Assembly: GCA_030145385.1 (NCBI GenBank)
Contig: JAQYVU010000042.1
Location: forward strand, 1-35,909
Direction of reading: 5' to 3'
DNA: 35,909 nt
From: Desulfococcaceae bacterium
GTDB taxonomy: Bacteria; Desulfobacterota; Desulfobacteria; Desulfobacterales; Desulfosalsimonadaceae
Below, piece by piece: positions 2,957-16,236 of this stretch. The notes under the pieces were generated by a model. The model did not search any database, was not told the origin of the DNA, and was given only the letters and a program-made list of their open reading frames with translations. The stretch's first letter is position 1; every line of letters begins with the position of its first letter. A program made the translations under genes and the position numbers.

Positions 2957-4591
2957 TTATTTCCCAAACGGGCATTTGGGAAATGTACAGGTGTTGCAGT
3001 TTAAGCAAAATCCGCCGACTGCCATTTTTGCCAGATCCATCCGGGTAATCTTTTGTCCTGCCAGAATGCGGGGCAGCAGAAGATCAAAACTGGTTGTTTT
3101 ATGAAACAGAGCACATGCCGGTACCCCGATAACGTTTGCTAATCCGATTTTTCCCACCAGGGTCATAGCCCCGGGCAGAATCGGTGCGCCATATAGGGCA
3201 TTTTTCAGCCCGGCCTGAATCAGGCCTTTTCGTGTCTGGTCATCCGGATCCACAGAGAGTCCGGCGGTGGTGACAATCAGGTCAATTCCCATATCTACCA
3301 TGGATGTGACACTGTCGGCAATCTGGTCGGCATTATCGGCGACAATGGCGGAATGAGCGACGGTGCAGTTTAATTTTTCAACTTTGCTTCTGATGATCGG
3401 GTCAAATTTGTCCTCGATCAGGCCTGAAAAGACTTCTGTTCCTGTTACCAGGATTCCGACGCTGGCTGGTTTTAAGGGAATAATATCAAACAGAGGACCG
3501 CTACTCAGGCAGGCCATGGCCTGATGGAACTGGTCACTGGCAAGATATAGCGGAATCGCCCGGCATCCTGCAAACGGCCGGTCCCTGTCTACCAAAATAT
3601 TATTCTGCCGGCTGGTACACATCACATTGGGTACCAGGTTGAAATTTTGCAGTTGGACTTCATCAATCGTCAGCAGGCCGTTGATTTTGGCATAAAAGTC
3701 AATTTTTCCTTCTTTTGGCGGGGTTTTATAATATACTTCCGAACCCGCAATAACCCCGGCAAATGTGGTTACTGCGTCGTTTTCGTGGATCCATTTACTT
3801 GTGTCGACAGCGGTGTTACCTTCAACATAGAGGGACGATCGCCCCATCTGCTGCAGCCGGCAGAGATCACCGGCTTCAATCTTCTGGCCTGCTTTGAATT
3901 CAGGGCCTTTTGATTTTCCAGGCACAATTCGCGTCATGTCATGCAGGGCTTTTTCTCCAATTGCGTTTTCGACTGGTATGGATTCCAGGACAGGGGATGA
4001 TTGGGTATATTCGTGCGATTGAATGCCGGAACGGTATGGATTTTCCCCCTGGCATCCCCGGCAGATGGCGCCGTCGTTTTTTGGATATGCTTCTGTGCAG
4101 ATGGGACAGGCAGCAATGGCGCTTGAACTTTTCTTTTTTACATATTGCGGGCGGATATGCACCGGTGTGATGTTTAAAAACTGATCACCGGCTTCCTCAA
4201 TTTCGGCAAAAAGCTTGTCCGTATCCTGTTCCTGTTTGGTTTTATGTTTGAGAAACCAGGCTTTGATTTCCGGAAAGTTTTCAAGCTTTTCCAGATCAAT
4301 GGCCGCCCGCCATCCATCAAAGTTGTATTTGTCAAAAAGGCTGACTGCATATCGTCCCAGATTGGTTACCCGCATCCATCCGTTTCCGGTACTGCAAAGG
4401 GTGAGAAGCTGGACTGCATCCGGAAGACATTTTGTTGTTTCCACCAGCGCCTCAAACAGGGTGCCTTCGGGTAATTTGCATTTGACGGCTTCCACCATGT
4501 ATCCGCCAATCAAAAGGCCGGGAGCCGGATAGCCGTGAAAGGATTTTGCAAGTTCCTTAAATTCTGAAAAGGTGTAATTCCCAATATTCAT
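2957..4591 (-). CDS. FmdE-domain protein fused to a molybdopterin-binding (MoCF) domain
   Basis: A 544-residue fusion. Residues 1-150 resemble FmdE, the accessory subunit encoded with molybdenum formylmethanofuran dehydrogenase: an FHG...PGLLIGG start, then CLPDAVQLLTLCSTGNG. A zinc-ribbon-like motif follows (CPIC at 162-165, CRGC at 177-180). The second half carries a MoaB/MogA/MoeA-type molybdopterin-binding domain, seen as VGILVTGTEVFSG, LIVTTAGLSVDPDDQTRKG and APILPGAMTLVG. The C-terminus ends in a Cys cluster, CLNCNTCTFPKCPFG. Such fusions are common in anaerobic Desulfobacterota, and a role in delivering or processing the Mo/W-bis-PGD cofactor is likely but not proven. It sits downstream of the molybdoenzyme operon, separated by a terminator, so it probably has its own promoter. 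The PEG-type loop usually written TGGxSxGxxD is altered here (TTAGLSVDPDD). Confidence 0.8.
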   Translation of the reverse strand: MNIGNYTFSEFKELAKSFHGYPAPGLLIGGYMVEAVKCKLPEGTLFEALVETTKCLPDAVQLLTLCSTGNGWMRVTNLGRYAVSLFDKYNFDGWRAAIDLEKLENFPEIKAWFLKHKTKQEQDTDKLFAEIEEAGDQFLNITPVHIRPQYVKKKSSSAIAACPICTEAYPKNDGAICRGCQGENPYRSGIQSHEYTQSSPVLESIPVENAIGEKALHDMTRIVPGKSKGPEFKAGQKIEAGDLCRLQQMGRSSLYVEGNTAVDTSKWIHENDAVTTFAGVIAGSEVYYKTPPKEGKIDFYAKINGLLTIDEVQLQNFNLVPNVMCTSRQNNILVDRDRPFAGCRAIPLYLASDQFHQAMACLSSGPLFDIIPLKPASVGILVTGTEVFSGLIEDKFDPIIRSKVEKLNCTVAHSAIVADNADQIADSVTSMVDMGIDLIVTTAGLSVDPDDQTRKGLIQAGLKNALYGAPILPGAMTLVGKIGLANVIGVPACALFHKTTSFDLLLPRILAGQKITRMDLAKMAVGGFCLNCNTCTFPKCPFGK

Positions 4592-4711: not shown

Positions 4712-4745
4712 AAAAAAACCACCCGCATGGCAGGTGGTTTTTTTA
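4712..4745 (-). terminator. Rho-independent terminator of the psrABC-like operon
   Basis: CCACC and GGTGG form the core stem around a short GC-containing loop, flanked by a run of A on one side and T on the other. It lies 37 bases beyond the stop codon of the NrfD/PsrC-like gene on the minus strand. Because both flanks are A/T runs it would work in either direction. Confidence 0.85.
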
Positions 4746-4781: not shown

Positions 4782-5972
4782 TTAATGAGCGTCGGCATCT
4801 AAAATCAGAAACCGCTCGGACAGGAAATAGAGAAACAGAAACAGACCCAGACCCAGTGCAAAGATCATCCATTCACCGGATGAAGGCACATAATGCATCA
4901 GGCCGTTTATGGCTTCAACCCCGGAACCTTCATTACCGGCCCGCATGGGCGGCATTTGACCGGCCACAATAAAATCGTAACGGGTAAAAAACATACCGAT
5001 CAGGAATGTTAATCCGGCAAGTCCCATGATTCTGATTTCTTTCGCTTTACTCGCTATCAATAGAGCAAGGGGCAGCACCAGGGCCATCAGGACTTCGCCG
5101 ATCCAGAAGTTGGCATATAGCGGGCCGCTTAAAAGCACAATCACCGAATCGTAAGCTTCCTTCGGCTCAGTGTACAGCGAAGAGATGATTTTCCAGAAAG
5201 AGAGAAAAATCATAATACCGATACACAATCCCATCAGCTTACCCAGGCTGCTCATGGCGTCTTTAAATTGATCCGGGACATTAAATTTATACACAATATT
5301 GTAAATTACCAGAAGCAAAGAAGCGCCGCCGGCAATTCCGGAAACCACCAGAAAGGTCGGAAAGTAGATGCCGTGGAAAAAAGGCCGGGCTGTTAACGAA
5401 CCAAAAACAAACCCCAGGTTGCTGGTTGCCATCACGCCGACCAGCAATGCGAGAAACCCGAGAACGGCTGCCAGTTTATGGTTGGTTCCGTTGGGATTGA
5501 ATACAACCAGGAGTTCGAGCCCCAGGATTAAAAGTTCAATCCCGTAAAAAATACCCATCCATACAATGGGGGCGCTGAAATTCGGGGAGATGAGAAACAG
5601 ATACATCAGCCGGAACGGATGTCCCAGTTCCATGCCGATCTGGGTAAATCCGGCCAGCAGAACGATAAACGCCATCAATACAATTCGTTTGCTGAGCCGG
5701 GCATATTGATGAAAACCAAATGCATGCCCCAGTCCGCCGATAAATGCAAGACCGGTGGATGTGATGACAAAATACGCGTAGGTGGCGATCAAAAGTCCCC
5801 AGGGGACCTGACGTGTCGCTCCGTAGACCGCCTCGTGCCCTTCAAAAATGACCCGAGCCACTCCGATAAGGCCGAGCACCAGTAGGACAGCTCCGGCGGC
5901 AATAAAAGGAATGGTGGGAACATCCCGGTTGATCCTGATTAAAGAACGTAAATTTTCAATCCGCGTGGACAT
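4782..5972 (-). CDS. NrfD/PsrC-type membrane subunit of a molybdenum oxidoreductase
   Basis: A polytopic membrane protein of 396 residues with about 8-10 hydrophobic helices, matching the NrfD/PsrC family. In polysulfide and thiosulfate reductases this subunit anchors the complex in the cytoplasmic membrane and exchanges electrons with the (mena)quinone pool on the outer face. Family-like segments include ATYAYFVITSTGLAFIGGLG, MELGHPFRLMYLFLISPNF and ISGIAGGAS-like stretches. The start is preceded by a GGAGGC ribosome site. It is the last gene of the operon, 9 bases after the iron-sulfur subunit, and is followed by a terminator. The order catalytic, iron-sulfur, membrane subunit is that of psrABC/phsABC. 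Which sulfur compound the complex handles is not visible. Confidence 0.88.
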   Translation of the reverse strand: MSTRIENLRSLIRINRDVPTIPFIAAGAVLLVLGLIGVARVIFEGHEAVYGATRQVPWGLLIATYAYFVITSTGLAFIGGLGHAFGFHQYARLSKRIVLMAFIVLLAGFTQIGMELGHPFRLMYLFLISPNFSAPIVWMGIFYGIELLILGLELLVVFNPNGTNHKLAAVLGFLALLVGVMATSNLGFVFGSLTARPFFHGIYFPTFLVVSGIAGGASLLLVIYNIVYKFNVPDQFKDAMSSLGKLMGLCIGIMIFLSFWKIISSLYTEPKEAYDSVIVLLSGPLYANFWIGEVLMALVLPLALLIASKAKEIRIMGLAGLTFLIGMFFTRYDFIVAGQMPPMRAGNEGSGVEAINGLMHYVPSSGEWMIFALGLGLFLFLYFLSERFLILDADAH

Positions 5973-5981
5973 ATTTGCCTC

Positions 5982-6536
5982 CTATAAAACATAAAAAAGT
6001 CTTGGGCGTGTATTTTTTTCAGGTTTGAGCTGCAAGTAGGGCCTGGAAGAAAGAAGCCGGCTGACCTTGCTGTTCGGGTCATTGAGATCACCGAACTCGC
6101 GAACTCTGACCGGGCAGGTTTCAACACATGCCGGTTCGCGGCCCTCACTTACCCGGTGCATGCAGAAAGTGCATTTTTCCACCGACTCATGATGCTCGCT
6201 GACAAACCGGGCATCATAGGGGCATGCGGTCATGCAGGCTTTACACAGAATACATTTTTTGTAGTCCACAAGAACAACACCTTCAGGGGTTGTAAAAGTC
6301 GCCTTTGTGGGGCAGACTTTTTCGCATGGCGCATTTTCACAATGCTGACATTGTGAAGTCTGGTACTCCTGATGCAGATGAGGGAATTTCCCCTGCAGGG
6401 GAAGCTCTGTGACCCAGATCCGGTAGGTGTCATCACCCACGGGCACAAAATTTTCGAATTTACAGGCGACTGTACAGGCCTTGCAGTTGAGGCATTTTTT
6501 CGTATCAAGCACAATGGCATATCGTTTGTTTTTCAT
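5982..6536 (-). CDS. Four-[4Fe-4S] ferredoxin-like subunit (PsrB/PhsB type)
   Basis: A 184-residue electron-transfer subunit with sixteen cluster cysteines in four groups: CLNCKACTVAC, CQHCENAPCEKVCP, CILCKACMTACP and CTFCM...ACVETCP. This is the layout of the DmsB/PsrB/NrfC family, which wires the molybdenum subunit to the quinone-reactive membrane subunit. There is no signal peptide, as expected: these subunits are exported as passengers of the Tat-targeted catalytic partner. The length is typical for the family. It sits 15 bases after the catalytic gene and 9 bases before the membrane-subunit gene, so the three are surely co-transcribed. Confidence 0.93.
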   Translation of the reverse strand: MKNKRYAIVLDTKKCLNCKACTVACKFENFVPVGDDTYRIWVTELPLQGKFPHLHQEYQTSQCQHCENAPCEKVCPTKATFTTPEGVVLVDYKKCILCKACMTACPYDARFVSEHHESVEKCTFCMHRVSEGREPACVETCPVRVREFGDLNDPNSKVSRLLSSRPYLQLKPEKNTRPRLFYVL

Positions 6537-6551
6537 AATTATCCTCGATCC

Positions 6552-8891
6552 TTAAGCCTTTTTAATGGTGACAAACGTCTCATGCATGCACACACCCCCG
6601 GAAATGGTATCTAACACATCATCGATGATTTCCGCTTCTGAGGCGCCTGATTTATAGGCTCTGGACATCCCGGGTGATTTTCTCCCCCAGCCGTTGACAT
6701 AAAAGACACAGTCCGGCCTGATTTTTTCCGTGACGTATGCTTTAATCCGCTGTTCTCCGATTTTACTTTTGATACGAACATATTCGCCGTCAACAATTCC
6801 CTTTTTTTTCGCTTCACCGGTATTGAGCCACACGGCATTTTCTTTCTGAATTTCCCATAGATAGGGATTGTTCTGGGTGCTGGTATGAGTATTCCATGCG
6901 GTGCGGCCCACCAGAAATCGGTATTGTCCCGGATCCGGCAATATTTCCGGTTCACAGTATTTTGGGAGCGGAAAGAGTCCGAATTCCTTGTAGCGTTCAT
7001 TAAACAGTTCAATTTTGCCGGTCTTTGATTTAAAGCGGAATCCGGGTTTCAGAGTCTTGCCGTAAGTGGGGCGGCCGCCGTCAACAGTGTAAAATCCTTC
7101 TTTGAGCAGTTGTTTGTAAGCGCCCGGATGATTGACAAGCTGATGCTTTATGTAATCCTGGATCGGTTTGTCCAGGATATCTTCAACCACATTTTTTTTG
7201 AAATCTACAAGATCAACCGGATCAATATCATCCCAGAGGGACGGTATCTTCAGCATTTCATGAATAATCCCGCCGGAGATTTCAAACATGGTCTTTGTGT
7301 CAAACAATGGCTTGATCACCGGCTGTCTCATCTCAACAATAGGCCAGATTCCGCCGATGCTGTGGGCCGGATCCCAGCTTTCCAGGTACGTGGAGTGGGG
7401 CAGAACAATATCCGCATACCAGGCAGTATCCGACATCTGCTGCTCGATAACACAGATAAATTCCATCTTTTCAAGCATTTTCATTGTCTTTTTAACATTG
7501 GGCACCGATTGAACCGGATTCTGTTTAAAACAGAAAAAGCCTCTCACCGGATAGGGGTCGTCCTGTAACACCGCTTCCCGAAACGTGATCCAGCTGCCGT
7601 CTTTTTCACTTAAAAACGCACAGGAGTCATCCGGCAGACCGGTACCGATCATGGGGCACTGGACAGCAGAAGGAACCACATCCTTAACCAGGTTGACGGC
7701 TTCCCGGTCGACACGGTCCCGGGTCAGATTGAAAAACGGGAACATCACATCATGGGATGCTAATTTGATCGAAGATTTGGGTACCACGGCACCTTTGGTG
7801 TCCCAGCATCCGCAGATGGCTGCCAGAATCGCAAATGTCTGACGGACATAGACCTCATGGGAGTAAAAAGAGCTTCGACGTCCCGGGTATATAACACTGC
7901 GGGGGGCATGGTCGGCAAACTCCCGGGCGGTTTTTCGGATTTCATCGGCTGCAATTTCGCATTTTTTTTCCGCCCATTCCGGCGTGTATTCGGCAACCAG
8001 CTCTTTTAATTCTTCAAACCCGTGGGTGTAAGTTTCCACAAATTTATGATCATAGAGGTTTTCTGAAATGATCACGTTGATCATGGCCAGAACAAATCCC
8101 TGGTCGGTTCTGGGTTTGATAGGGTACCAGCGGTCGGCTTTCGCACCTGTTTCCGTGAATCGCGGATCCAGCACAATAAGTTTTTGCCCCTTGGGCTTGT
8201 ATCGCTGAAAATCAACGGAATCCGGTGTGATTAATGCCTGGGCACGGTCCGAGCCGAGCATAAGGACATATTCGGCATTGGCAAGATCCGCGTCCGGGAA
8301 ACTGCCGAAAACCGATGACCAGCCCTGGATATTTGTTGAAAGGCAGAGCGTGGTATGCCGGACCGTGTTTAATGAACCAAAACTGTTGACCAGATAATAA
8401 TAGAACTCTTCCTGGAAACCTTCGGTGGAAGCAAATGCAACCGATGATCTGTTTTCATATTTTTGTTTCAAATCAGCGAGATTTTTTGCCACGTATTTAA
8501 ATGCTTCATCCCAGGAAATTTCTTTCCATTTACCTTCTCCGCGTTTTCCGGTTCGCAGCAGCGGTGTTTTTAAACGATCCGGGCTATAGGGCAGGGAGAC
8601 GCCGGCGTTGCCTTTGGCACAGAGCATGCCCCGGCTTTTGACGTGTCGCGGGTTGGGATTGATTTTGTGAAGCTTTCCGTTGACCACTTCACCGATGATG
8701 CCGCACTTGTTCACGCACATGGCACAATTACTGGCAATATATTCCCGCGTGCCTTTCGGCAGTATTGAGTAGTCAAACGGATCCGTCGGAGCCGCCGTCA
8801 GCATATTCAGGTTCGGCCCGAATAATGCCCCGGCAATCGCACTGGAACTGAGTCCGAGAAATTTGCGCCTGCTCATCAATTTCTTTTTCAT
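6552..8891 (-). CDS. Molybdopterin oxidoreductase, polysulfide/thiosulfate reductase-like catalytic subunit
   Basis: A 779-residue catalytic subunit of the DMSO-reductase superfamily, PsrA/PhsA branch. The N-terminus is a Tat signal (SRRKFLGL then a hydrophobic stretch), placing the mature enzyme in the periplasm. A [4Fe-4S] site follows at Cys56, Cys59, Cys63 and Cys91. Cys183 in HTTLCLS is the expected Mo ligand, fitting the Cys-ligated PsrA/PhsA and NapA-like enzymes rather than Ser- or Asp-ligated ones. Later segments (LMLGSDRAQAL, LIVLDPRFTETGAKAD, the C-terminal HTSTQNNPYLWE) bind the bis-MGD cofactor. A ribosome site AGGGG precedes ATG. Context (TorD chaperone, FeS subunit, PsrC-like subunit, TusA/DsrE genes) points to inorganic sulfur chemistry. 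The direction (reduction or oxidation) and the substrate (thiosulfate, polysulfide, sulfur, tetrathionate) remain open; TtrA is normally longer. Confidence 0.9.
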   Translation of the reverse strand: MKKKLMSRRKFLGLSSSAIAGALFGPNLNMLTAAPTDPFDYSILPKGTREYIASNCAMCVNKCGIIGEVVNGKLHKINPNPRHVKSRGMLCAKGNAGVSLPYSPDRLKTPLLRTGKRGEGKWKEISWDEAFKYVAKNLADLKQKYENRSSVAFASTEGFQEEFYYYLVNSFGSLNTVRHTTLCLSTNIQGWSSVFGSFPDADLANAEYVLMLGSDRAQALITPDSVDFQRYKPKGQKLIVLDPRFTETGAKADRWYPIKPRTDQGFVLAMINVIISENLYDHKFVETYTHGFEELKELVAEYTPEWAEKKCEIAADEIRKTAREFADHAPRSVIYPGRRSSFYSHEVYVRQTFAILAAICGCWDTKGAVVPKSSIKLASHDVMFPFFNLTRDRVDREAVNLVKDVVPSAVQCPMIGTGLPDDSCAFLSEKDGSWITFREAVLQDDPYPVRGFFCFKQNPVQSVPNVKKTMKMLEKMEFICVIEQQMSDTAWYADIVLPHSTYLESWDPAHSIGGIWPIVEMRQPVIKPLFDTKTMFEISGGIIHEMLKIPSLWDDIDPVDLVDFKKNVVEDILDKPIQDYIKHQLVNHPGAYKQLLKEGFYTVDGGRPTYGKTLKPGFRFKSKTGKIELFNERYKEFGLFPLPKYCEPEILPDPGQYRFLVGRTAWNTHTSTQNNPYLWEIQKENAVWLNTGEAKKKGIVDGEYVRIKSKIGEQRIKAYVTEKIRPDCVFYVNGWGRKSPGMSRAYKSGASEAEIIDDVLDTISGGVCMHETFVTIKKA

Positions 8892-8895
8892 TTAT

Positions 8896-9642
8896 TTACC
8901 CCTGTAATTCATTTGTTGAATTGCTACGAAAACCAAGCAGCTGGACATATATCGGGTCCGCGTCATGAAATAAGGATTTGAGTGCTTTTCCGGTTACTTT
9001 ATAGAAATCGTAACTTGCGTAAGAATTTATTTTGTCGGTAAAATCATCAACCAATGGTTCGATATAGCGATAGGATATCTCGAGTAATGCGTAAATGCAG
9101 GCCATTAAATTTTTGTCGGACGAATTATTCTTTTCGACAAGGGTATTTAAAAGGCTTGAACAGAACTCAAGCAGGACCGCCAGGTGGTCTTCAAGTTCAT
9201 GTACGGATGCATCCAGCATAAAACCGGATTCCATGATAATTTGCCGCAGCCGGTAAAAGTTATCGCTCATGAGCAGGCCGTCTCCCTGGTAGCATGACGC
9301 ATAGGGAGCCGCCGGCACAAACCCCTGGTTGTTCACAAAAAGGCTGATGTATTCAGGTTGAAGATCGTCTATGGGGGGCAGTTCCGGGACCGCCCCCCCG
9401 TAATCGGTAAAAAAATCAGTAAACGCCTCAAGATGACCTGCAATTTCAGAATATATCTGTTCTGTGGGATATCTGAAAATAAGGCTGAGATAAAAAAAGA
9501 TATTTTTTAAAGCAAGCGCTGATTCCACATCCAGCCTGTTTTTGTCCCAGGCGGATGTTTCATGCTTATCCTGCATGCCCGGACGCAATGTCCGGGATTG
9601 AGCAAAAATAGTCTCTTTAAGAGATTCAAAACTCATTTCCAT
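8896..9642 (-). CDS. TorD/DmsD-family molybdoenzyme maturation chaperone
   Basis: A 248-residue, mostly helical cytoplasmic protein of the TorD family, which binds the Tat signal of a partner molybdoenzyme and holds it until the cofactor is inserted. The family signature is seen in LQPEYISLFVNNQG followed by PAAPYASCYQGDG. Its stop codon is 4 bases before the start of the catalytic gene, so partner choice is clear. Two ATG codons (9642 and 9636) are in frame; the first has a GGGGAA ribosome site at suitable distance and is kept. The N-terminal 35 residues are extra compared with the core fold and look disordered. A long imperfect palindrome (9721-9823) lies upstream, between this gene and the cytochrome gene. 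Confidence 0.85.
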   Translation of the reverse strand: MEMSFESLKETIFAQSRTLRPGMQDKHETSAWDKNRLDVESALALKNIFFYLSLIFRYPTEQIYSEIAGHLEAFTDFFTDYGGAVPELPPIDDLQPEYISLFVNNQGFVPAAPYASCYQGDGLLMSDNFYRLRQIIMESGFMLDASVHELEDHLAVLLEFCSSLLNTLVEKNNSSDKNLMACIYALLEISYRYIEPLVDDFTDKINSYASYDFYKVTGKALKSLFHDADPIYVQLLGFRSNSTNELQG

Positions 9643-9720
9643 TTCAGATTCCCCGACAGAATATTTATCTTTGGATCATCTGTTGATAATCCAGTAAAAA
9701 ATCAGATTCTAATGGCAAAG

Positions 9721-9823
9721 AAAAAAGTTCCAAAGTTAAGGCGCACAAGTTCTTCGGAATGAGGCGTAGCTTGCTACTCCGCAGTGACGAAGAAAGCAGT
9801 GCAACGCAAAGTTTGGATTTTTT
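9721..9823. repeat. Long imperfect palindrome, intergenic repeat element
   Basis: The two halves pair over about 100 bases: outer AAAAAA/TTTTTT and CCAAA/TTTGG, then TTCTTCG (9751-9756 region) with CGAAGAA, and a central GTAGC-TT-GCTAC hairpin at 9766-9777. It fills the space between the cytochrome c and TorD genes. Elements of this shape are scattered between genes in Desulfobacterales genomes (recalled, not checked). As RNA it would fold into a long hairpin and could separate expression of the upstream and downstream parts of the cluster. Confidence 0.65.
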
Positions 9824-9832
9824 ACGCAGCCA

Positions 9833-10177
9833 TTATTTACAGGTCGCGGGCTGCGGTGAGTCATACCCGTGATTGTAAAGATAAGTGTAAACATCTTTTA
9901 ATTCGCCCTGTGACCTCTTATTCCATTCTTCAACACATTCAAGTCTTTCGTACTTTTTAAACGTTCTTTCCCACTGGGCCTGTGTTTTTGTGTTAGGAGA
10001 CATTGTTGCTGCTGAACTTCCGTCATGACATGTCCGGCAATTTTTTCTAAACAGGTATTTGCCTTTGCGATCATTGCCATCGTTTGTAAAATTATCAGCT
10101 GCCATGACCACGCTGAAAAATGAACCGATAATAAACGCGATAATGGTAATAGTTAGTATCTTCTTTCCCTTGTTCAT
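9833..10177 (-). CDS. Small periplasmic monohaem cytochrome c
   Basis: A 114-residue exported cytochrome with a signal peptide (KKILTITIIAFIIGSFFSVV then MAADN) and one haem-binding CRTCH motif near residue 47. A Met in the TMSPNTKTQAQWE stretch is a possible sixth ligand. Two further cysteines (RLECVEEW and PATCK) could form a disulfide. The frame is open to a TTG at 10189, but the ribosome site GGAGG at 10183-10187 overlaps that codon, so the ATG at 10177 is chosen. It lies within the sulfur cluster, upstream of the TorD and PsrABC-like genes, and may be the soluble electron partner of that periplasmic enzyme. That partnership is inferred from position only. Confidence 0.85.
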   Translation of the reverse strand: MNKGKKILTITIIAFIIGSFFSVVMAADNFTNDGNDRKGKYLFRKNCRTCHDGSSAATMSPNTKTQAQWERTFKKYERLECVEEWNKRSQGELKDVYTYLYNHGYDSPQPATCK

Positions 10178-10287
10178 AGTATCCTCCAAAAAAGTTAAAT
10201 TATATTATTGATTAAAAGTTAAAGTTTGTTTTGTTTACAATTCGCCGGATCGTTTCACCGTGAGCGGTCGGATCAGCAATAATTGAC

Positions 10288-10593
10288 CTAAAACACGACA
10301 TACCTGTCACAACTGTTTATCATCTCCGCATTCCTTGCCTGGGTCGCAAAATCTTTGAAACCAACGCCGGGAACATCCCCGGAAAGTCCGAATCCGCGGA
10401 AGCTCACATCGCAGACAGATATTTTTGCTTTACCGACAAGTTGTGCGAAATCAGGCGTCTGGGTTAACCGGACACCTGATCCGGTAAAAAAAATCTCAAT
10501 ATCCTTGCCTTTTGCATGGGCGGCATCTGTTAACTTGATCACATGATCCAGGAATTTATCGGTTCCTACTAAGATTCCTAATTTGTCAGCCAT
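10288..10593 (-). CDS. DsrE-like sulfur-relay protein
   Basis: A 101-residue single-domain protein of the DsrE/DsrF-like fold: a beta strand (KLGILVGTD), a helix with HVIKLTDAAHAKGKDI, then IEIFFTGSGVRLT and KISVCDVSFRGFGL. The Cys in SVCDVS sits where DsrE-family proteins carry the sulfur-accepting cysteine; a second Cys is near the end (NSCDRYVVF). Such proteins carry persulfide sulfur between TusA, rhodaneses and enzymes in the cytoplasm. It is 39 bases downstream of the 57-residue DsrH-like gene and about 100 bases upstream of the cytochrome gene. The family is recognised by shape and motif; precise subfamily is uncertain. Confidence 0.75.
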   Translation of the reverse strand: MADKLGILVGTDKFLDHVIKLTDAAHAKGKDIEIFFTGSGVRLTQTPDFAQLVGKAKISVCDVSFRGFGLSGDVPGVGFKDFATQARNAEMINSCDRYVVF

Positions 10594-10632
10594 ATATTAC
10601 CCCTTATTTTATCTGCTATCCGGTTGGCAGGT

Positions 10633-10806
10633 TTACCACCAGCAGATGACTTTATCATGTGCGAAAATATCATCCACGAGCCTTGACCAGTCGACATCTC
10701 CCTGAAATAAAGGCTGGACGGTTGCTTCATCTGTTTCAGCCAGGTAGTCGATCAGTTTTTCGACCGTCTCATCCGGGTTGCTTCTTAAAATGTGAAGTAT
10801 TCGCAT
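10633..10806 (-). CDS. 57-residue small protein, DsrH/TusB-like
   Basis: A short gene that a length cutoff would miss. It starts MRILHILRSNPDE and ends DKVICWW, with one cysteine three residues from the end. The ribosome site GTAGGAGAT stands 6-10 bases before ATG. The first strand (RILHIL) and the helix (DETVEKLIDYLAE) recall TusB/DsrH, the smallest partner of the TusBCD/DsrEFH sulfur-transfer complex, but the protein is shorter than the usual 90 or so residues. It lies between two DsrE-like genes in a cluster with TusA and YedE, which supports a sulfur-relay role. Codon use and ribosome site argue that it is a real gene; the function is inferred from context. Confidence 0.65.
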   Translation of the reverse strand: MRILHILRSNPDETVEKLIDYLAETDEATVQPLFQGDVDWSRLVDDIFAHDKVICWW

Positions 10807-10820
10807 AGTTGTATCTCCTA

Positions 10821-10949
10821 CCCGATTTTCTCAAGGGTCGGATCGATTCAGGAGCAAGGCATTTCAGCCTGAAGACGTAGAGTCTTACTTAAATGCCTGA
10901 ATAACGCAGTTCCTGTGTCGCTCCGGCTCTCCTTTGGTGAAAAAAATAA
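10821..10949. repeat. 129-bp dispersed palindromic repeat, copy A
   Basis: This block matches 17521-17649 along its whole length in the same orientation: CCCGATTTTCTCA at the left edge, CAGGAGCAAGGCATTTCAG, TGAATAACGCAGTTCCTG and CTCCTTTGGTGAA at the right edge. It is itself an imperfect palindrome: AGGCATTT near 10858 pairs with AAATGCCT near 10900, and CAGGA with TCCTG. It occupies the gap between the two halves of the sulfur-relay genes, directly upstream of the 57-residue gene's ribosome site. Confidence 0.8.
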
Positions 10950-11046
10950 TTTTTTTGATTGAGTATATTGAAACTGTTTTTAGTAAACTTGTATTTTTAA
11001 AATAATTATTTGAAATCATATTTTATTTTTTCATGAGAAATGCGGG

Positions 11047-11334
11047 TTAAAACGGAATGACCAGGTCAACGTCTTTCAGTCGCTGGGCAATCTCTTTAAT
11101 GGTTGCGTGCTGAAAACCATATTTTTCAGCGTTTGCCATGTTGTTTGAAATCCGCTGCCCTTCCATTTCATCCAGAAATTCCATATTGTCCTGGTATGCT
11201 TCATCCATATTGGCAATTTCGTGGTTAAAGACGAGCATTTGAATATCCACATCATCCAGCAATGCCCCTAAACTCAGACGCAGGCCTTCGTATTGCTGAT
11301 CAATGTCTTTTATCAGTACAGCTACTTTTTTCAT
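11047..11334 (-). CDS. DsrE-like protein without cysteine
   Basis: A 95-residue protein that begins MKKVAVLIKDIDQQYEGLRLSLGALLDD and ends in a VDLVIPF strand, resembling small DsrE-fold proteins. It contains no cysteine, so it cannot itself carry persulfide sulfur; a structural or regulatory partner role is more likely, as for the inactive subunits of DsrEFH-type hexamers. It starts 4 bases after the tusA stop codon, which implies translational coupling. Genes of this kind sit beside tusA and yedE in the sulfur clusters of Desulfobacterota (recalled). The family assignment is tentative. Confidence 0.65.
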   Translation of the reverse strand: MKKVAVLIKDIDQQYEGLRLSLGALLDDVDIQMLVFNHEIANMDEAYQDNMEFLDEMEGQRISNNMANAEKYGFQHATIKEIAQRLKDVDLVIPF

Positions 11335-11338
11335 TTAC

Positions 11339-11584
11339 TTACCCCTTTTTGATAAAATACCGGGTAAATCCTTCTGCATCGTCTGCCATGGCCATCAGTT
11401 CATTGCCGCCTTTTTTACAAAATCCGGGAATATCGTTTTTAGACCCCGGATCCGTTCCCAGAACTTCCAATATCAGACCGGGTTTCATGCTTTTCAGCTT
11501 TTTCTTTGTTTTCAAAAGCGGCATTGGACAGCTGAGCCCTTTAACATCAAGGATTTCATCAGATTTTATTTCATTTATATCCAT
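11339..11584 (-). CDS. tusA: TusA-family sulfur carrier protein
   Basis: An 81-residue TusA/SirA/YedF-like protein. The sulfur-binding CPMP motif is at residues 19-22 (LDVKGLSCPMPLLKTKKKL), followed by the usual LEVLGTDPGSKNDIPGF segment and an aromatic-rich end. TusA proteins accept persulfide sulfur on this Cys and pass it to DsrE-like proteins or to biosynthetic and respiratory enzymes. The gene is 27 bases after the YedE permease gene and 4 bases before the cysteine-free DsrE-like gene. The yedE-tusA pairing is typical: the permease imports thiosulfate or sulfur and TusA takes it up on the cytoplasmic side. Confidence 0.92.
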   Translation of the reverse strand: MDINEIKSDEILDVKGLSCPMPLLKTKKKLKSMKPGLILEVLGTDPGSKNDIPGFCKKGGNELMAMADDAEGFTRYFIKKG

Positions 11585-11611
11585 TGGTTCTCCTTATTTT
11601 AAAACCATATA

Positions 11612-12802
11612 TTAAAATATGACCAGTTTTTCCGTTTTTTCATTCCAGTCCGCAAGCATGATCCAGGACATCAGAATCAGGATGAACAACGGCATTGTAA
11701 ATTGCCAGGATATGATATCCGGCATGAATTGCCCTTTGCCCAGCATCTCTTTAAGCCCGGTAGCATTCAGCAGGGACTGGCTTGCCGAGTTGGTGACGGC
11801 AAAAGTTATCAGTGTTGTTACCAGTTTGGTATGACCTTCCCCTGATCTCCAGAGAGTACTGCTGGCACATCCGCCGGCAAGCAGCATCCCGATTCCGAAA
11901 ATCAGCCCGCCGATCAGACTGCCGAACCAGAATGGATGAAAAACGCCCATGTCGGGCGGTTGTATGTAGGTCCATTTGATCACTGCGGATCCGCATCCGT
12001 AAATAATCAGGCTCAAAGCGACGGCCCGGACCATCTCCGAATCTCCGGTCATAAAAGGTTCCCGGAACGCGCGTACAAAGCAAAATCGTGAGCGGTGCAT
12101 GACCAGGCCGATAAGCAGCCCGAAGAACATCAAACCGCCGATCTGTGTTTTTCCGACGGATGCGTAGATGTAAAAGGCCGCGATTCCGGCTATAAAAATA
12201 AAAGCACCGAAAATTCGCTGGATTAAAGTCCAATCAAAGGATTTTTTATCTGATGCAGGCACCTTAACCGCTTTGGTTTTCTGGGGAAGATATTCCATTT
12301 CCCAGAGCAGTAATTTTAAACCGATAAAAGCACCGATTCCAAGGCCGATCATCATGGTGTATCCGCCCATGGAAAAGATACCAACAGCGGTATAGAATCC
12401 GCCAACGTTGCATCCGCCGGCCAGGGCTGCTCCGGCGCCCATTAAAATGCCGCCAATGATTCCCTTGATGTATTCAATGGGCGGAGCCGGCCGGATTTTA
12501 AACTGTCTGCTCATCATGGCAGAAGCCATTGCGCCGGCAAACAATCCGAAATTCGTCACGGAAAGGCTGTGCAGCCATGGTGTGATTTCCGGCCGGTTCT
12601 GTCCCGGAATTAAATAGTAGAGAATCCAGTCTCCCCAGTTCCGATATCCCCCGGCAATTCCCCAGGGCACATTCCAGAGAAAAATCAGCAATGCGATGAC
12701 AGCCAGAAAAACACCGGCTAACCAACTGGGCCACTTCCTTTCAAAAACGGCTGAATCGGCAGTTGTGATTTGTTCTTTGAAAATATCAATAAAAGAACTC
12801 AA
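11612..12802 (-). CDS. YeeE/YedE-family thiosulfate or sulfur transporter
   Basis: A 396-residue inner-membrane protein with about ten hydrophobic helices in two similar halves. The halves carry the conserved cysteines of the family: Cys131 in ALAGGCNVGGFYT, Cys241 in HRSRFCFVRAF and Cys312 in LLAGGCASSTLW. In the characterised bacterial homologue (TsuA) such cysteines line the path for thiosulfate uptake. The gene follows the outer-membrane barrel gene by 25 bases and precedes tusA by 27, so a route from outer membrane through inner membrane to a cytoplasmic carrier is encoded in order. Imported species (thiosulfate, sulfite-derived or zero-valent sulfur) cannot be read from sequence. Confidence 0.9.
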   Translation of the reverse strand: MSSFIDIFKEQITTADSAVFERKWPSWLAGVFLAVIALLIFLWNVPWGIAGGYRNWGDWILYYLIPGQNRPEITPWLHSLSVTNFGLFAGAMASAMMSRQFKIRPAPPIEYIKGIIGGILMGAGAALAGGCNVGGFYTAVGIFSMGGYTMMIGLGIGAFIGLKLLLWEMEYLPQKTKAVKVPASDKKSFDWTLIQRIFGAFIFIAGIAAFYIYASVGKTQIGGLMFFGLLIGLVMHRSRFCFVRAFREPFMTGDSEMVRAVALSLIIYGCGSAVIKWTYIQPPDMGVFHPFWFGSLIGGLIFGIGMLLAGGCASSTLWRSGEGHTKLVTTLITFAVTNSASQSLLNATGLKEMLGKGQFMPDIISWQFTMPLFILILMSWIMLADWNEKTEKLVIF

Positions 12803-12827
12803 TGGATTATCCTGTGTTTAAAAATTA

Positions 12828-14570
12828 TTAAAAGCTGAGGGTTGCTGAAGCATAATAATTCCAGACTTCATCAACAACCGGATTGATTGTGTCTAAAGCA
12901 GTCGCACCTGATATTCTGACGGGTGCGCCCAGCGGATTGCCGCTGCCGGTATACTTATAATCATAGTATTGGGTGCCGAGTCTGACGAAAAAGTTCTTAT
13001 CGATAATCGGCTGAATGTAATATGCTTCGTAAACATCCCCGCGAACCGCAAGTTTGCTTCCGATCAAAGAATCTTCTGCGCCGGTGAAATTGAACCAGTA
13101 TTTGGAACCCCAGTTGTATTCAAGACCCAGTCGTCCTTTAAAGGGCATGGGGAACAGAGCTCCTGCATAAATGCTGTATCCGTCTCTTGTTTCAAGATCG
13201 CCGTTGGAGCTTAATAAGCCCATTCCCAGCATTTCATAAAAAGGATTGTTGGATATTTGTGTAGGATCGGTATGGGTCCATGATCCGGCTAAAAACAGGT
13301 CAATATCAGCGATTTCATTGGTCAGGTTGCTTCTGAGAAGTAAAGAGGCGGCATCCCAGTCGCCGATGTTGGTCATGGGTTCCAGCCGGCTGATATAACC
13401 GCCGGTGTTCTGTTCAAAATAATATTCCGCTTCCCCGTCACCATTGGTGTCCTGTTTTGAAACAATAAACGGCATAACGGTTGTTCCGGTGAAACCGTCC
13501 GTGATATCCCAGGCGTGGGCATAATTGAACATTAAGCTGGTTGAGCCGTTGTCATAAAGATCTGAAATAAATCCCAGCATGTGAACATCATCCAGGGAAG
13601 AACCCATGTAATTCAAGGATGATGAGTTCCCCCAGTCGGATTCATAGCCGACACCATAGCAGATTTTAAAGTTAGCGCCCGGAATACCGATGATATTTTC
13701 CAGACCGAATGCCAGTGATGCACCGTCAAACTGCCAGTTAATAATTGTTGCAACCGGAGACCCGCCGACTTCGCTATAGTTCCCATATTCCAGGGGCGGG
13801 CCATCGGTTGAAGGCCTGCGACCCAGTGAAAAGCTGATGGGAACATCGCTGTATTCCTTGCTGTAAATAAAAGTCGCTCTTTCAAGGCGGATGGAGTCGC
13901 CATGGGGAAGGCTGGAAGTATTGCCGTCAAATGTCACATCCCCCAGGCTGCCCTGGTTGAATTTAACGCCACTGCTGTCTCCGTAAACTTTGTATGCGGC
14001 AAGACGCCCGGTAAATTTCAGGTTCTCGTTAATCCGGGCTTTCATATCCATACGGAATTTATTGGTATAAATAATATCATTGTTTGCATCATAGGTTTCA
14101 GGCGGAGGAATCATTCCGGCCATTGCCATTTGCTGGATTCCCTGTTGAATTTGCGGGAGTGTCGCACCATTAAATCCAAAAGGCGGGGGAGTAAAAAAAG
14201 CACCCATCAGTGAGGGGGGGGCGGCCAGAATATTGTCATAATGGATACTGTCTGCACGGGTTCGAAGATAGACGCCAAAGGAAATTTTGTCCGTGGCTGT
14301 ATGCATTTCAGCTGCGTCCAAACGGCCGCTCAGGTCGTCAATATCATCCTGAGCCCAATTGTCCTGTTTCTCGAGTTTTTCGATTTTCTTTTGCAGCGTG
14401 CTTACTTCTTCTTTAAGGGTTTCTACGCTGCATTTGGCCTTACATCCTTCAGTCGCACATTTCTTGCTGCAATTATTGGCTACTGCCTGAAACGGCAGAG
14501 CGAGTGTCAGTAAAAACGCAATCGCCGATAAAAAAATTATTGATTTAAAAGCTGGTGTTGCGCGTTTCAT
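12828..14570 (-). CDS. Outer-membrane beta-barrel protein (DUF3373-like) with Cys-rich N-terminus
   Basis: A 580-residue exported protein. A signal peptide (hydrophobic core FLSAIAFLLTLALPF, cleavage near AVA-NN) is followed by a Cys cluster, CSKKCATEGCKAKC, and a coiled coil of about 45 residues (VETLKEEVSTLQKKIEKLEK onward). The remainder is rich in alternating amphipathic strands with aromatic ends and finishes in YYASATLSF; the terminal Phe is the usual outer-membrane assembly signal. The strands and DKISFGVYLRTRADSI segment recall DUF3373 porin-like proteins of Desulfobacterota and Campylobacterota. It is the first gene after a sigma-54-type promoter and heads the sulfur operon, suggesting a channel for the sulfur substrate. 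Substrate and oligomeric state are unknown. Confidence 0.78.
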   Translation of the reverse strand: MKRATPAFKSIIFLSAIAFLLTLALPFQAVANNCSKKCATEGCKAKCSVETLKEEVSTLQKKIEKLEKQDNWAQDDIDDLSGRLDAAEMHTATDKISFGVYLRTRADSIHYDNILAAPPSLMGAFFTPPPFGFNGATLPQIQQGIQQMAMAGMIPPPETYDANNDIIYTNKFRMDMKARINENLKFTGRLAAYKVYGDSSGVKFNQGSLGDVTFDGNTSSLPHGDSIRLERATFIYSKEYSDVPISFSLGRRPSTDGPPLEYGNYSEVGGSPVATIINWQFDGASLAFGLENIIGIPGANFKICYGVGYESDWGNSSSLNYMGSSLDDVHMLGFISDLYDNGSTSLMFNYAHAWDITDGFTGTTVMPFIVSKQDTNGDGEAEYYFEQNTGGYISRLEPMTNIGDWDAASLLLRSNLTNEIADIDLFLAGSWTHTDPTQISNNPFYEMLGMGLLSSNGDLETRDGYSIYAGALFPMPFKGRLGLEYNWGSKYWFNFTGAEDSLIGSKLAVRGDVYEAYYIQPIIDKNFFVRLGTQYYDYKYTGSGNPLGAPVRISGATALDTINPVVDEVWNYYASATLSF

Positions 14571-14648: not shown

Positions 14649-14664
14649 TGCAATGAGCATGCCA
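14649..14664 (-). promoter_or_regulatory. Sigma-54 promoter of the sulfur operon
   Basis: Read on the minus strand the site is TGGCATGCTCATTGCA. Compared with the sigma-54 consensus TGGCACG-N4-TTGCW it has the invariant GG and GC with exact spacing and one mismatch. Transcription would begin about 12 bases downstream, leaving a leader of roughly 65 bases before the barrel gene at 14570. The adjacent divergent gene encodes a sigma-54 activator, which strongly supports the assignment. Confidence 0.85.
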
Positions 14665-14727
14665 GAAATATTTTAGATGGCTTTGCCTAGCATGCAAGCG
14701 GCCTTAGAATCACTGGTCATAAGATTT

Positions 14728-14859: not shown

Positions 14860-16236
14860 ATGGCGGATAATCCATTTGATATCGGCAAGCACTGGAAAAC
14901 CATTGCCAATACATTTAATGACGGATTGCTTGTTTTTGATACTCGCGGAAGATTTCTCGCGGCAAATAAAGCGGCTGAAAAGTTGACCGGTTATACGGAA
15001 GAGGAACTTAAAAGCAAGGATTGCCGGATACTGAACTGCACAGGATGTAAGATTCTTGCCCGAGGTGAAAAGGAAAAATGGTGCAAACTTTTTTCTAAAG
15101 GCCAGGTTCTTGATAAAAAGTGTTTAATCACCCATAAAGACCGACGCACCATTCATCTGATGAAGAGCGGAACCGTGCTGAGGGATTCGGATGGTGAAAT
15201 CGTCGGTGTTGTTGAAACCTTAACCGACATATCCCAGGTCATCCGCCAGCAGCAGGAAATCAAGACCCTGCGTCAGACGTTTCATTTAGATGACGGATAC
15301 CACGGTATTGTGGGAAAGTCTCTGGTTATGCTGAATCTGTTTGAGTTGATAGAAAATGTATCGCACACATATGCACCGGTGATGATTTCAGGAGAAAGCG
15401 GTACTGGAAAAGAACTTGTTGCCCGGGCGATTCATGAAGCCGGACCCCGAAGGGACAGACCCTTTATCAAAGTCAATTGCGCCGCGTTAAATGATAATCT
15501 GCTTGAGAGTGAATTGTTCGGCCATGTGAAAGGCGCTTTTACCGGTGCGGATCGAAACCGGATCGGCCGATTTGAGGCTGCCCATGAAGGGAGTATCTTT
15601 TTAGATGAAATCGGTGATATCCCCCTGTCAACCCAGGTAAAGCTGTTGCGCGTGCTTGAGGAAAAGAAAATTGAACGGGTCGGTGATATTAAAACAATTC
15701 CCATTGATGTCCGTATTATTACGGCGACGAATAAAAACCTGGAAAAACTTGTCAGAGAAGGTGAATTCAGAGAAGATCTGTATTTCAGAATTAATGTATT
15801 TCCGCTTCATTGTCCGTCTCTGGATCAGCGTCGTGAAGATATCCCGATCATCGTTCAGCATTTTATCCGTCAGAATTCTCAGGACAGCGGCAAGAGAATT
15901 CTGGGGGTCACGCCAAAAGCCATGGATGCGCTGACTTCATATCATTGGCCCGGTAATGTCAGGGAACTCAGAAATGCCATTGATTATGCTTTTGTGCTGT
16001 GCCCGGGGGGCGGTATCGGCATAGAACATCTTCCCGTAAAAATCACATCGCAAAAAAATTGTCTGCCGGCAGAAAATAATACTCCGGCTCCTGATTATTC
16101 GAATGATCGGGAAACCATGCTTCAGGTCCTTCGGGATTCCGCCTGGAATCAGTCTGAGGCTGCCCGAAAACTTGGGGTCAGCCGCGTGACAGTGTGGAAG
16201 CGGATGAAAAAATATGGATTAAAGCGACCGGAATAA
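14860..16236 (+). CDS. Sigma-54-dependent activator with PAS sensor domain
   Basis: A 458-residue bacterial enhancer-binding protein. An N-terminal PAS domain (about 11-130) contains four cysteines, Cys55, Cys60, Cys63 and Cys75 (DCRILNCTGC then WCKLF). The AAA+ domain (about 148-375) has Walker A GESGTGKE at 178-185, the sigma-54 contact loop GAFTGA at 225-230 and Walker B IFLDEIGD at 246-253. A Fis-type helix-turn-helix (NQSEAARKLGVSRVTVWKRM) closes the protein. A GGGGGG-containing ribosome site precedes ATG. It is divergent from the sulfur operon, whose promoter is of sigma-54 type, so it is very probably that operon's activator. There is no receiver domain, so sensing is likely direct through PAS; the Cys cluster could hold a metal centre or react with sulfur species. 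Confidence 0.93.
   Translation: MADNPFDIGKHWKTIANTFNDGLLVFDTRGRFLAANKAAEKLTGYTEEELKSKDCRILNCTGCKILARGEKEKWCKLFSKGQVLDKKCLITHKDRRTIHLMKSGTVLRDSDGEIVGVVETLTDISQVIRQQQEIKTLRQTFHLDDGYHGIVGKSLVMLNLFELIENVSHTYAPVMISGESGTGKELVARAIHEAGPRRDRPFIKVNCAALNDNLLESELFGHVKGAFTGADRNRIGRFEAAHEGSIFLDEIGDIPLSTQVKLLRVLEEKKIERVGDIKTIPIDVRIITATNKNLEKLVREGEFREDLYFRINVFPLHCPSLDQRREDIPIIVQHFIRQNSQDSGKRILGVTPKAMDALTSYHWPGNVRELRNAIDYAFVLCPGGGIGIEHLPVKITSQKNCLPAENNTPAPDYSNDRETMLQVLRDSAWNQSEAARKLGVSRVTVWKRMKKYGLKRPE

Follow-up and report, generated by a model that had tools for sequence, protein, structure and literature searches.

Two questions are open for sulfate reducers and for disproportionators: by what route sulfur compounds pass the outer membrane, and what couples sulfur chemistry in the periplasm to the cytoplasmic Dsr enzymes. 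Both are raised by a locus on the minus strand of contig JAQYVU010000042.1 from a Desulfococcaceae bacterium (assembly GCA_030145385.1), where a single run of genes behind one sigma-54-type site encodes a candidate porin together with a periplasmic enzyme, an importer, and a sulfur relay, which makes the coupling genetically testable. The window, meaning the whole stretch analysed here, is 35,909 nucleotides long (bases 1–35909 of this contig, C64) and belongs to a 5.2 Mb draft genome with 97% completeness and 4.2% contamination; the host is an uncultured sulfate reducer of which we know no culture. The locus occupies positions 4782–14570 of the window. What might such a unit do, and is its composition fixed? 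We consider it moderately likely that the run is a sigma-54-controlled operon for an intermediate sulfur compound (polysulfide or zero-valent sulfur, thiosulfate, or tetrathionate) that would be handled on both sides of the inner membrane. This proposal is supported by the gene identities, their linkage and recurrence, a promoter motif, conserved cysteines at the molybdenum-ligand position and at the presumed transfer position, and dsrABD in the genome. The full combination is rare and recurs in rearranged form in Desulfohalobiaceae, and the related loci suggest that the design is modular, with one slot that various respiratory enzymes may fill.

Gene content of the locus

The locus is a run of 11 genes that reads from 14570 down to 4782 in the order DUF3373, yedE, tusA, a 95-codon gene, a 57-codon gene, dsrE, a small cytochrome c gene, torD, a molybdopterin subunit gene, an iron-sulfur (FeS) subunit gene, and nrfD (Table 1). 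Intergenic gaps measure 4–39 bases; only those near the dsr genes and the cytochrome gene are longer (240, 110, and 190 bases). The divergent regulator gene falls outside 4782–14570. The original prediction, made from the letters alone, had named a YedE-TusA-DsrE set, a PsrABC-type enzyme with its chaperone, a cytochrome, and a porin-like barrel; Pfam and NCBIfam profiles and the open reading frame (ORF) translations recovered every named gene on one strand at the predicted coordinates.

The yedE and tusA genes, a dsrE-like gene, and two small conserved genes stand together in the synteny of the YedE-TusA-DsrEFH (YTD) cluster, which PMC13293266 equates with yedE-tusA-dsrEFH type II. The cluster has been reported in cable bacteria (PMC13047784) and, together with otr, in Acidobacteriota (PMC8528874). 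YedE scores under the cut-offs that NCBIfam sets for its TsuA and YedE/FdhT models. The products of the 57- and 95-codon genes have no match above cut-off in Pfam or NCBIfam, and the names DsrH-like and DsrF-like, respectively, follow from where the genes stand in YTD clusters and from the type II complex as published. Identification of DsrE, DsrF, and DsrH by PDB profiles was dropped, as none of the small products, including the 57-residue DsrH-like protein, gave a significant match. Cys61 of DsrE is invariant in 19 rows from the class in one alignment and in 18 rows in a second (A4); it may correspond to Cys67, the conserved sulfur-transfer cysteine of cable-bacterial DsrE. DsrD goes with reductive-type Dsr. 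The same genome encodes dsrA (612 bits), a second sulfite reductase subunit, and DsrD (104.8 bits) together on contig C66, and YTD therefore co-occurs with a reductive dsrAB, the type being read from DsrD. It had been claimed that genes for every step lie in one block; this is not supported in that form, as dsrABD are on another contig.

The AlphaFold2 model of the DUF3373 product is barrel-like and of moderate confidence (mean predicted local distance difference test score (pLDDT) 67; predicted template modelling score 0.66). Its best PDB matches by Foldseek are OmpF-type porins (E 4.7e-10; template modelling score by query 0.36). In the literature found, the family appeared only under the putative porin family 1.B.62 with 18 strands (PMC4827864) and in a table on phenotype prediction (PMC12746109); the present comparison supplies functional context for it. 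The DUF3373 alignment was built without L195, without L191, which has a masked stretch, and without L201, whose coordinates gave stops.

A molybdopterin subunit with a cysteine at the ligand position, an FeS subunit, and an NrfD-type anchor place the enzyme with the PsrABC kind. Cys183 aligns with position 173 of PDB 2vpw_A, which we take to be the molybdenum-ligand position, and at least 90% of 15 rows retain cysteines 56, 59, 63, 91, and 183. The plain name PhsABC was rejected, given a score of 513 bits against the PhsA equivalog of NCBIfam (cut-off 694) and 30% identity to an E. coli plasmid PhsA. A plain MOLY cluster was rejected because the NrfD anchor gene adjoins the FeS subunit gene. 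In a quick tree of 44 rows, the window copy forms one clade with three class genomes (G103, G165, and G022) and two metagenome-assembled genomes (MAGs) of Desulfohalobiaceae that are 69–72% identical (Shimodaira-Hasegawa-like approximate likelihood ratio test (SH-aLRT) 100). Every row of the enclosing clade of 20 (SH-aLRT 100) is from a locus that carries DUF3373, the small cytochrome, and/or a cytochrome of the octaheme tetrathionate reductase (OTR) type; the locus L077/L187 carries OTR without the small cytochrome. Some of these rows were found through neighbour searches, so the association is partly built in; the rows from the subunit searches of the class and phylum genomes are free of this. 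The tree was made without the L062 fragment, ORFs under 400 residues (including the partial subunit of L214), and L291–L297, and its long branches limit the placement of PhsA and G318. Some relatives in the clade sit with rhodanese genes. In three loci from other families of the phylum (L298, L299, and L303), DUF3373 lies beside an ORF that matches rhodanese and contains a single CxxCH motif, followed by a relative of the molybdopterin subunit.

Regulation of the locus

The sequence CTGGCATGCTCATTGCA, starting at 14665, is the sole match to the sigma-54 pattern on both strands of the first 22 kb of the window; the pattern was written from what we take to be the -24/-12 consensus. Upstream of DUF3373 genes the pattern occurs in 27 of 71 cases, against 0.14 expected from dinucleotide shuffles, and control windows of the same loci contain it in 13 of 3248 cases. 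It is found at 23 of 49 genes with a divergent activator and at 4 of 22 without one, and 44 of the 71 genes have no site of this form. Taken together, the divergent activator, the sigma-54-type site, and the terminator-like hairpin suggest one regulated unit, and it is likely that the block is co-regulated from the site upstream of the barrel gene. The hairpin 3' of nrfD counts for little by itself, as the block holds 18 terminator-like sites against 11.9 expected, several of them inside genes. Cysteines 55, 60, 63, 75, and 88 of the activator PAS domain are retained in 52–57 of 61 homologues, making this cysteine-rich domain a possible sulfur or redox sensor. The claim that a YTD cluster is joined here to an oxidoreductase and a regulator is borne out.

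Table 1. Positions of the features of the locus and its flanks, with the evidence for each assignment
Feature	Position	Strand	Evidence
Sigma-54 (-24/-12) type promoter site CTGGCATGCTCATTGCA	14649..14665	-	Pattern match; upstream of DUF3373 gene
DUF3373 putative outer-membrane porin: N-terminal hydrophobic stretch, long helix, beta-barrel	12828..14570	-	Pfam PF11853, 410 bits; AlphaFold2; Foldseek
YedE/YeeE-type sulfur-compound permease, TTG start	11612..12802	-	Pfam Sulf_transp, 178.7 bits
TusA sulfur carrier, CPMP motif	11339..11584	-	Pfam TusA, 85.6 bits
DsrF-like subunit of DsrEFH type II, 95 residues, no cysteine	11047..11334	-	Conserved position in YTD loci
DsrH-like subunit of DsrEFH type II, 57 residues	10633..10806	-	Conserved position in YTD loci
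DsrE-like subunit of DsrEFH type II, Cys61	10288..10593	-	Pfam DsrE, 27.7 bits (cut-off 22.7)
Small monohaem c protein, two further invariant cysteines	9833..10177	-	Pfam Cytochrome_CBB3, 29.1 bits (cut-off 27)
TorD-type maturation chaperone	8896..9642	-	Pfam Nitrate_red_del, 67.9 bits; TorD NCBIfam model below cut-off
Molybdopterin catalytic subunit, PsrA/PhsA-like, twin-arginine N-terminus MSRRKFLG	6552..8891	-	Pfam/NCBIfam; PDB profile search
Ferredoxin-type FeS subunit, PsrB-like, 16 Cys	5982..6536	-	Pfam Fer4_11 and related
NrfD-type membrane anchor, PsrC-like	4782..5972	-	Pfam NrfD, 98.2 bits
Intrinsic-terminator-like hairpin, T-rich tail, 3' of nrfD	4719..4733	-	Hairpin scan
Divergent regulator: PAS, sigma-54 activator, Fis-type HTH; cysteine-rich PAS	14860..16236	+	Pfam Sigma54_activat, 238 bits; PAS; HTH_8
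FmdE/molybdopterin-binding (MoCF) protein, downstream satellite gene	2957..4591	-	Pfam FmdE, MoCF_biosynth

Recurrence of the locus and its redox slot

Among 291 genomes of the class, yedE was detected at E 1e-30 or better in 32, DUF3373 at 1e-20 in 75, and the molybdopterin subunit at 1e-100 in 59; genome counts for this subunit score only the best two or three candidates per genome. Profiles built from the loci gave the layouts of 98 loci, in which several G loci and L190–L269 are the same genomes (G103 is L190, for example) and were not summed. The order that recurs is a divergent sigma-54 activator, DUF3373, [yedE-tusA], [dsrF-dsrH-dsrE], a small cytochrome-like gene, and a redox enzyme. 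From the activator to the small cytochrome, with all of YTD, this order is complete at 11 of the 98 loci, spread over four families of the taxonomic order, and three more loci lack only the activator. Chance adjacency was rejected because the order recurs across loci and families.

A gene-order search in relatives, which the original prediction had called for, returned the same linkage and order, molybdoenzyme included, in G103 and G165; two Desulfohalobiaceae MAGs show the linkage with the genes arranged differently. L211 of this family reads cytc, DUF3373, yedE, torD, molybdopterin subunit, and nrfD, followed by dsrE, dsrH, dsrF, and tusA on the opposite strand; L207, an incomplete contig, has the same parts from DUF3373 onward. 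L214 has molybdopterin and FeS subunits with cytochrome b561 beside cytc, DUF3373, tusA, yedE, and dsr genes, and L204 has cytc, DUF3373, and yedE without a molybdoenzyme. DUF3373 and yedE adjoin in L204, L207, and L211, and a single tusA lies between them in L214.

Neighbours were counted for 75 DUF3373 copies in 74 loci of the class sample. A small cytochrome-like gene lies within 6 kb of 68 copies, the activator within 3 kb of 53, an OTR-type cytochrome within 9 kb of 39, yedE within 3 kb of 18, and the molybdopterin subunit within 8 kb of 10. Where at least 6 kb of downstream sequence was present (45 copies), the small gene was found at all 45, OTR or the molybdopterin subunit at 33, both at one (L130), and neither at 12. 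The OTR-type protein of the sister locus L130, with cytochrome b561 as its partner, has eight CxxCH motifs counted by eye and matches PDB 1sp3 (E 1.3e-92), presumably the Shewanella OTR. In the genome of the window, contig C194 carries the nearest OTR homologue (61%), accompanied by a separate sigma-54 activator and a cytochrome b561. At the 18 loci that join DUF3373 and yedE, OTR is found at 8, the molybdoenzyme at 3, and neither in the fetched stretch at 7. The predicted coupling of YTD to a dedicated oxidoreductase stands insofar as the linkage recurs, but the molybdoenzyme is not the usual partner, and we rejected it as a standard one.

DUF3373 is directly upstream at 16 of 27 YTD loci (yedE and tusA) with at least 600 nt upstream; it was rejected as a fixed YTD partner on this count and on the 19 genomes of the phylum that carry both genes apart (see below). 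Twenty DUF3373 loci outside the class, a non-random sample hand-picked from 66 genomes with a match, have an OTR-profile multihaem protein at 8 (seven of them at 78–471 bits only), a relative of the molybdopterin subunit at 3, and neither at 9, and the small cytochrome exceeds 100 bits at two only. Against the usual synteny, a dsrE-type gene lies near DUF3373 with no yedE in the fetched stretch at nine loci (L130, L131, L133, L151, L157, L159, L162, L172, and L176).

Haem loss in the small cytochrome family

The small c protein has the haem motif CRTCH and an ATG start at 10177, with an alternative TTG start at 10189. CxxCH is present in 35 of 65 homologues and lost in 30, and the second haem cysteine and two others (54, 85, and 117 in TTG-start numbering) are present in all 65; this is a cytochrome family that gave up its haem yet retained its cysteines. 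On a tree made without the motif columns, haem loss is one change (support 99/99, with a warning from the tool of few columns). The haemless form occurs in Desulfocicer vacuolatum (L195) and Desulfosarcina cetonica (L201), and L138 also falls in the haemless clade. Of these two named isolates, D. cetonica has the DUF3373-YTD arrangement and D. vacuolatum a divergent form. When copies were sorted by partner within 6 kb (n = 77), those near the molybdopterin subunit had the motif in 14 cases and lacked it in none, those near OTR only had it in 14 and lacked it in 25, and those near neither enzyme had it in 11 and lacked it in 13. Because a single event accounts for the haem loss, the copies do not count as independent cases, and shared ancestry may by itself explain the partner pattern. 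Among the added loci L291–L297, the gene is found in L292, L293, L294, L296, and L297, with the motif in all five, and none was shown in L291 and L295.

The structure model of the haemless form has a mean pLDDT of 85. No significant PDB match and no Pfam match were obtained for it, and the best structural matches, cytochromes c, were at E 1 or worse; the fold match was therefore dropped and no fold is claimed. As a tentative and rather doubtful extension, the haemless lineage could have become a cysteine-based sulfur carrier, and DUF3373 and the three-cysteine protein could form a dedicated uptake pair for sulfane sulfur, a sulfur porin with a periplasmic carrier that was once a cytochrome. 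Such a pair would serve a slot of interchangeable enzymes (molybdoenzyme or octaheme cytochrome), with YTD added when sulfur goes inside.

Proposed function and alternative explanations

In the scheme that we infer for the localisation of the products, their substrate, the direction of the reactions, and the joint action of the two arms, DUF3373 would let the sulfur compound through the outer membrane. The PsrAB-like enzyme, exported by the twin-arginine route and held on its NrfD anchor, would move electrons between the menaquinone pool and the periplasmic sulfur compound, most likely reducing sulfane sulfur to sulfide, and the small haem c protein may work with it. YedE would bring sulfane sulfur in through the inner membrane. 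From there TusA and DsrEFH type II would relay it to DsrC, a transfer that DsrEFH type II performs in vitro (PMC13293266), and to Dsr enzymes whose genes lie elsewhere; it could then be oxidised. Both arms together might allow a disproportionation-like use, or either arm might act alone.

Disproportionation by this unit is possible. YTD and MOLY have been named as the best disproportionation candidates (PMC12998232), and YTD proteins were more abundant during thiosulfate disproportionation (PMC9751629); the value of YTD as a disproportionation marker has also been doubted (PMC13293266). Desulfocicer, Desulfospira, and Desulfosarcina, three of the five named cultured organisms recognised, are absent from the main text of a survey of disproportionators (PMC12998232).

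Several findings weigh against the operon that we propose. None of the results settles which way either arm runs, and TusA and DsrEFH type II were not persulfidated by thiosulfate in vitro (PMC13293266). The genome of the window holds a second YTD copy (G000 contig C89, L040/L277) with no DUF3373 or molybdoenzyme in the fetched stretch of 20 kb. The molybdopterin subunit is found at 78% identity or more in only 4 of the 291 class genomes (its own, G103, G165, and G022) and, among 395 genomes of the phylum, in its own only. YTD occurs without DUF3373 directly upstream at 11 of the 27 loci, and 19 other genomes of the same phylum have yedE and DUF3373 on different contigs or more than 180 kb apart, with contig ends as a possible cause. 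The set of DUF3373, small cytochrome, and molybdoenzyme is also found without YTD: G365, G548, and G586 carry cytc, DUF3373, molybdopterin, FeS, and NrfD-like genes with no YTD in the fetched stretch. Finally, the scan that gave the terminator-like hairpin lists further promoter- and terminator-like matches within the block, so that a single transcript is put here as no more than likely.

The transfer of sulfur from DsrEFH type II to DsrC is described as unidirectional and read as oxidative (PMC13293266). The whole module could accordingly be mainly oxidative, with the periplasmic enzyme reversed from sulfide to polysulfide, electrons going to menaquinone, the haem c protein as a conceivable electron outlet, and YTD importing sulfane sulfur for oxidation by Dsr. 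We consider this unlikely, as the genome has DsrD, the companion of reductive-type Dsr, and as enzymes of the Psr kind are described as reductases. Related loci, moreover, carry OTR-type cytochromes, for which tetrathionate reduction is the reported activity (PMC8528874).

The abundance of OTR leads to another improbable reading, in which the locus would serve thiosulfate or tetrathionate respiration: the molybdoenzyme or OTR would reduce the oxyanion with quinol, and YTD would only recover or detoxify sulfane sulfur with no energetic coupling. Besides the OTR genes near 39 of the 75 DUF3373 copies, cytochrome b561 is found at 32, and the commonest single arrangement (13 of 75) consists of DUF3373, activator, small cytochrome, OTR, and cytochrome b561 with no YTD; tetrathionate also raised otr expression in Acidobacteriota (PMC8528874). 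Respiration of this kind, however, leaves the position of YTD between porin and cytochrome, and the reordered linkage in Desulfohalobiaceae, unexplained. That the molybdoenzyme acts on a non-sulfur substrate (arsenate, selenate, or a compound like dimethyl sulfoxide) and lies beside YTD by historical accident is very improbable: family membership alone leaves the substrate unfixed and the PhsA score of 513 is under its cut-off of 694, but the closest structure by sequence is 2vpw, deposited as a thiosulfate reductase (E 3.6e-111 versus 1.2e-49 for ArrA), the NCBIfam models for ArrA, dimethyl sulfoxide, and selenate score far below PhsA, and some relatives of the same clade lie with rhodanese genes. 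We retain the proposed sulfur operon working on both sides of the inner membrane as the preferred reading.

Neighbouring genes and further loci

The FmdE-type gene downstream of the block has counterparts at 16 of the 98 loci, including loci without a molybdoenzyme. Elsewhere in the window, 20417–27184 encodes a protein of 2255 residues with chitobiase C-terminal, Big_5, and beta-helix domains, next to another beta-helix protein, and 33052–34722 encodes a 556-residue protein with weak matches to multihaem cytochromes. The second YTD copy on C89 lies with a haem cytochrome, a sigma-54-type regulator, and two large proteins, one of which has a rubredoxin-like domain. L205, from a MAG labelled Desulfonatronospira, is a 5.7 kb contig with yedE, tusA, and dsrF beside cytochrome b561, TorD-like, and rhodanese-like genes and no DUF3373; disproportionating members of Desulfonatronospira are listed in PMC12998232.

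Comparison with known systems

The locus shares with the YTD or dsrEFH type II clusters (PMC13293266, PMC12998232, and PMC13047784) a YedE, a TusA, and a DsrE-like protein with two small proteins in one run, a conserved DsrE cysteine that may be the equivalent one, and a genome with dsrAB and dsrD. It differs in the setting of YTD, which has a DUF3373 porin on one side and a haem c protein on the other, with a sigma-54 activator next to the run and a molybdoenzyme following. The word "porin" has no occurrence in the main text of these three papers, and "DUF3373" has none in two of them.

With PsrABC and PhsABC, the locus has in common a molybdopterin subunit with FeS cysteines and a cysteine at the ligand position, an FeS subunit, and an NrfD anchor of the PsrC type; its enzyme, however, falls in a clade of its own, and a TorD-type chaperone and a haem c protein lie within the unit. 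The MOLY cluster (MolyA, MolyB, and the TorD-like MolyC) likewise has a molybdopterin subunit, an FeS subunit, and a TorD-type chaperone side by side, but the window adds an NrfD anchor, and PMC12998232 contrasts MolyAB with anchor-associated enzymes. OTR holds the place of the molybdoenzyme in sister loci, and none is present in the window.

The scheme for Desulfurivibrio dismutans (PMC12142623), in which Psr and a reversed Dsr are proposed for sulfur disproportionation and a porin and YeeE/YedE for import, also combines a periplasmic Psr, YeeE/YedE, TusA, Dsr, and a porin gene near YeeE/YedE. Its locus tags are dispersed and no DsrEFH was found there, whereas in the window all parts except Dsr form one run. 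No account of the combined unit turned up in the literature searched, which comprised the papers of the searched library without their supplements. The YTD part and the Psr-type part are of known kinds, and what looks new is their combination with a porin in one regulated run and the modular redox slot.

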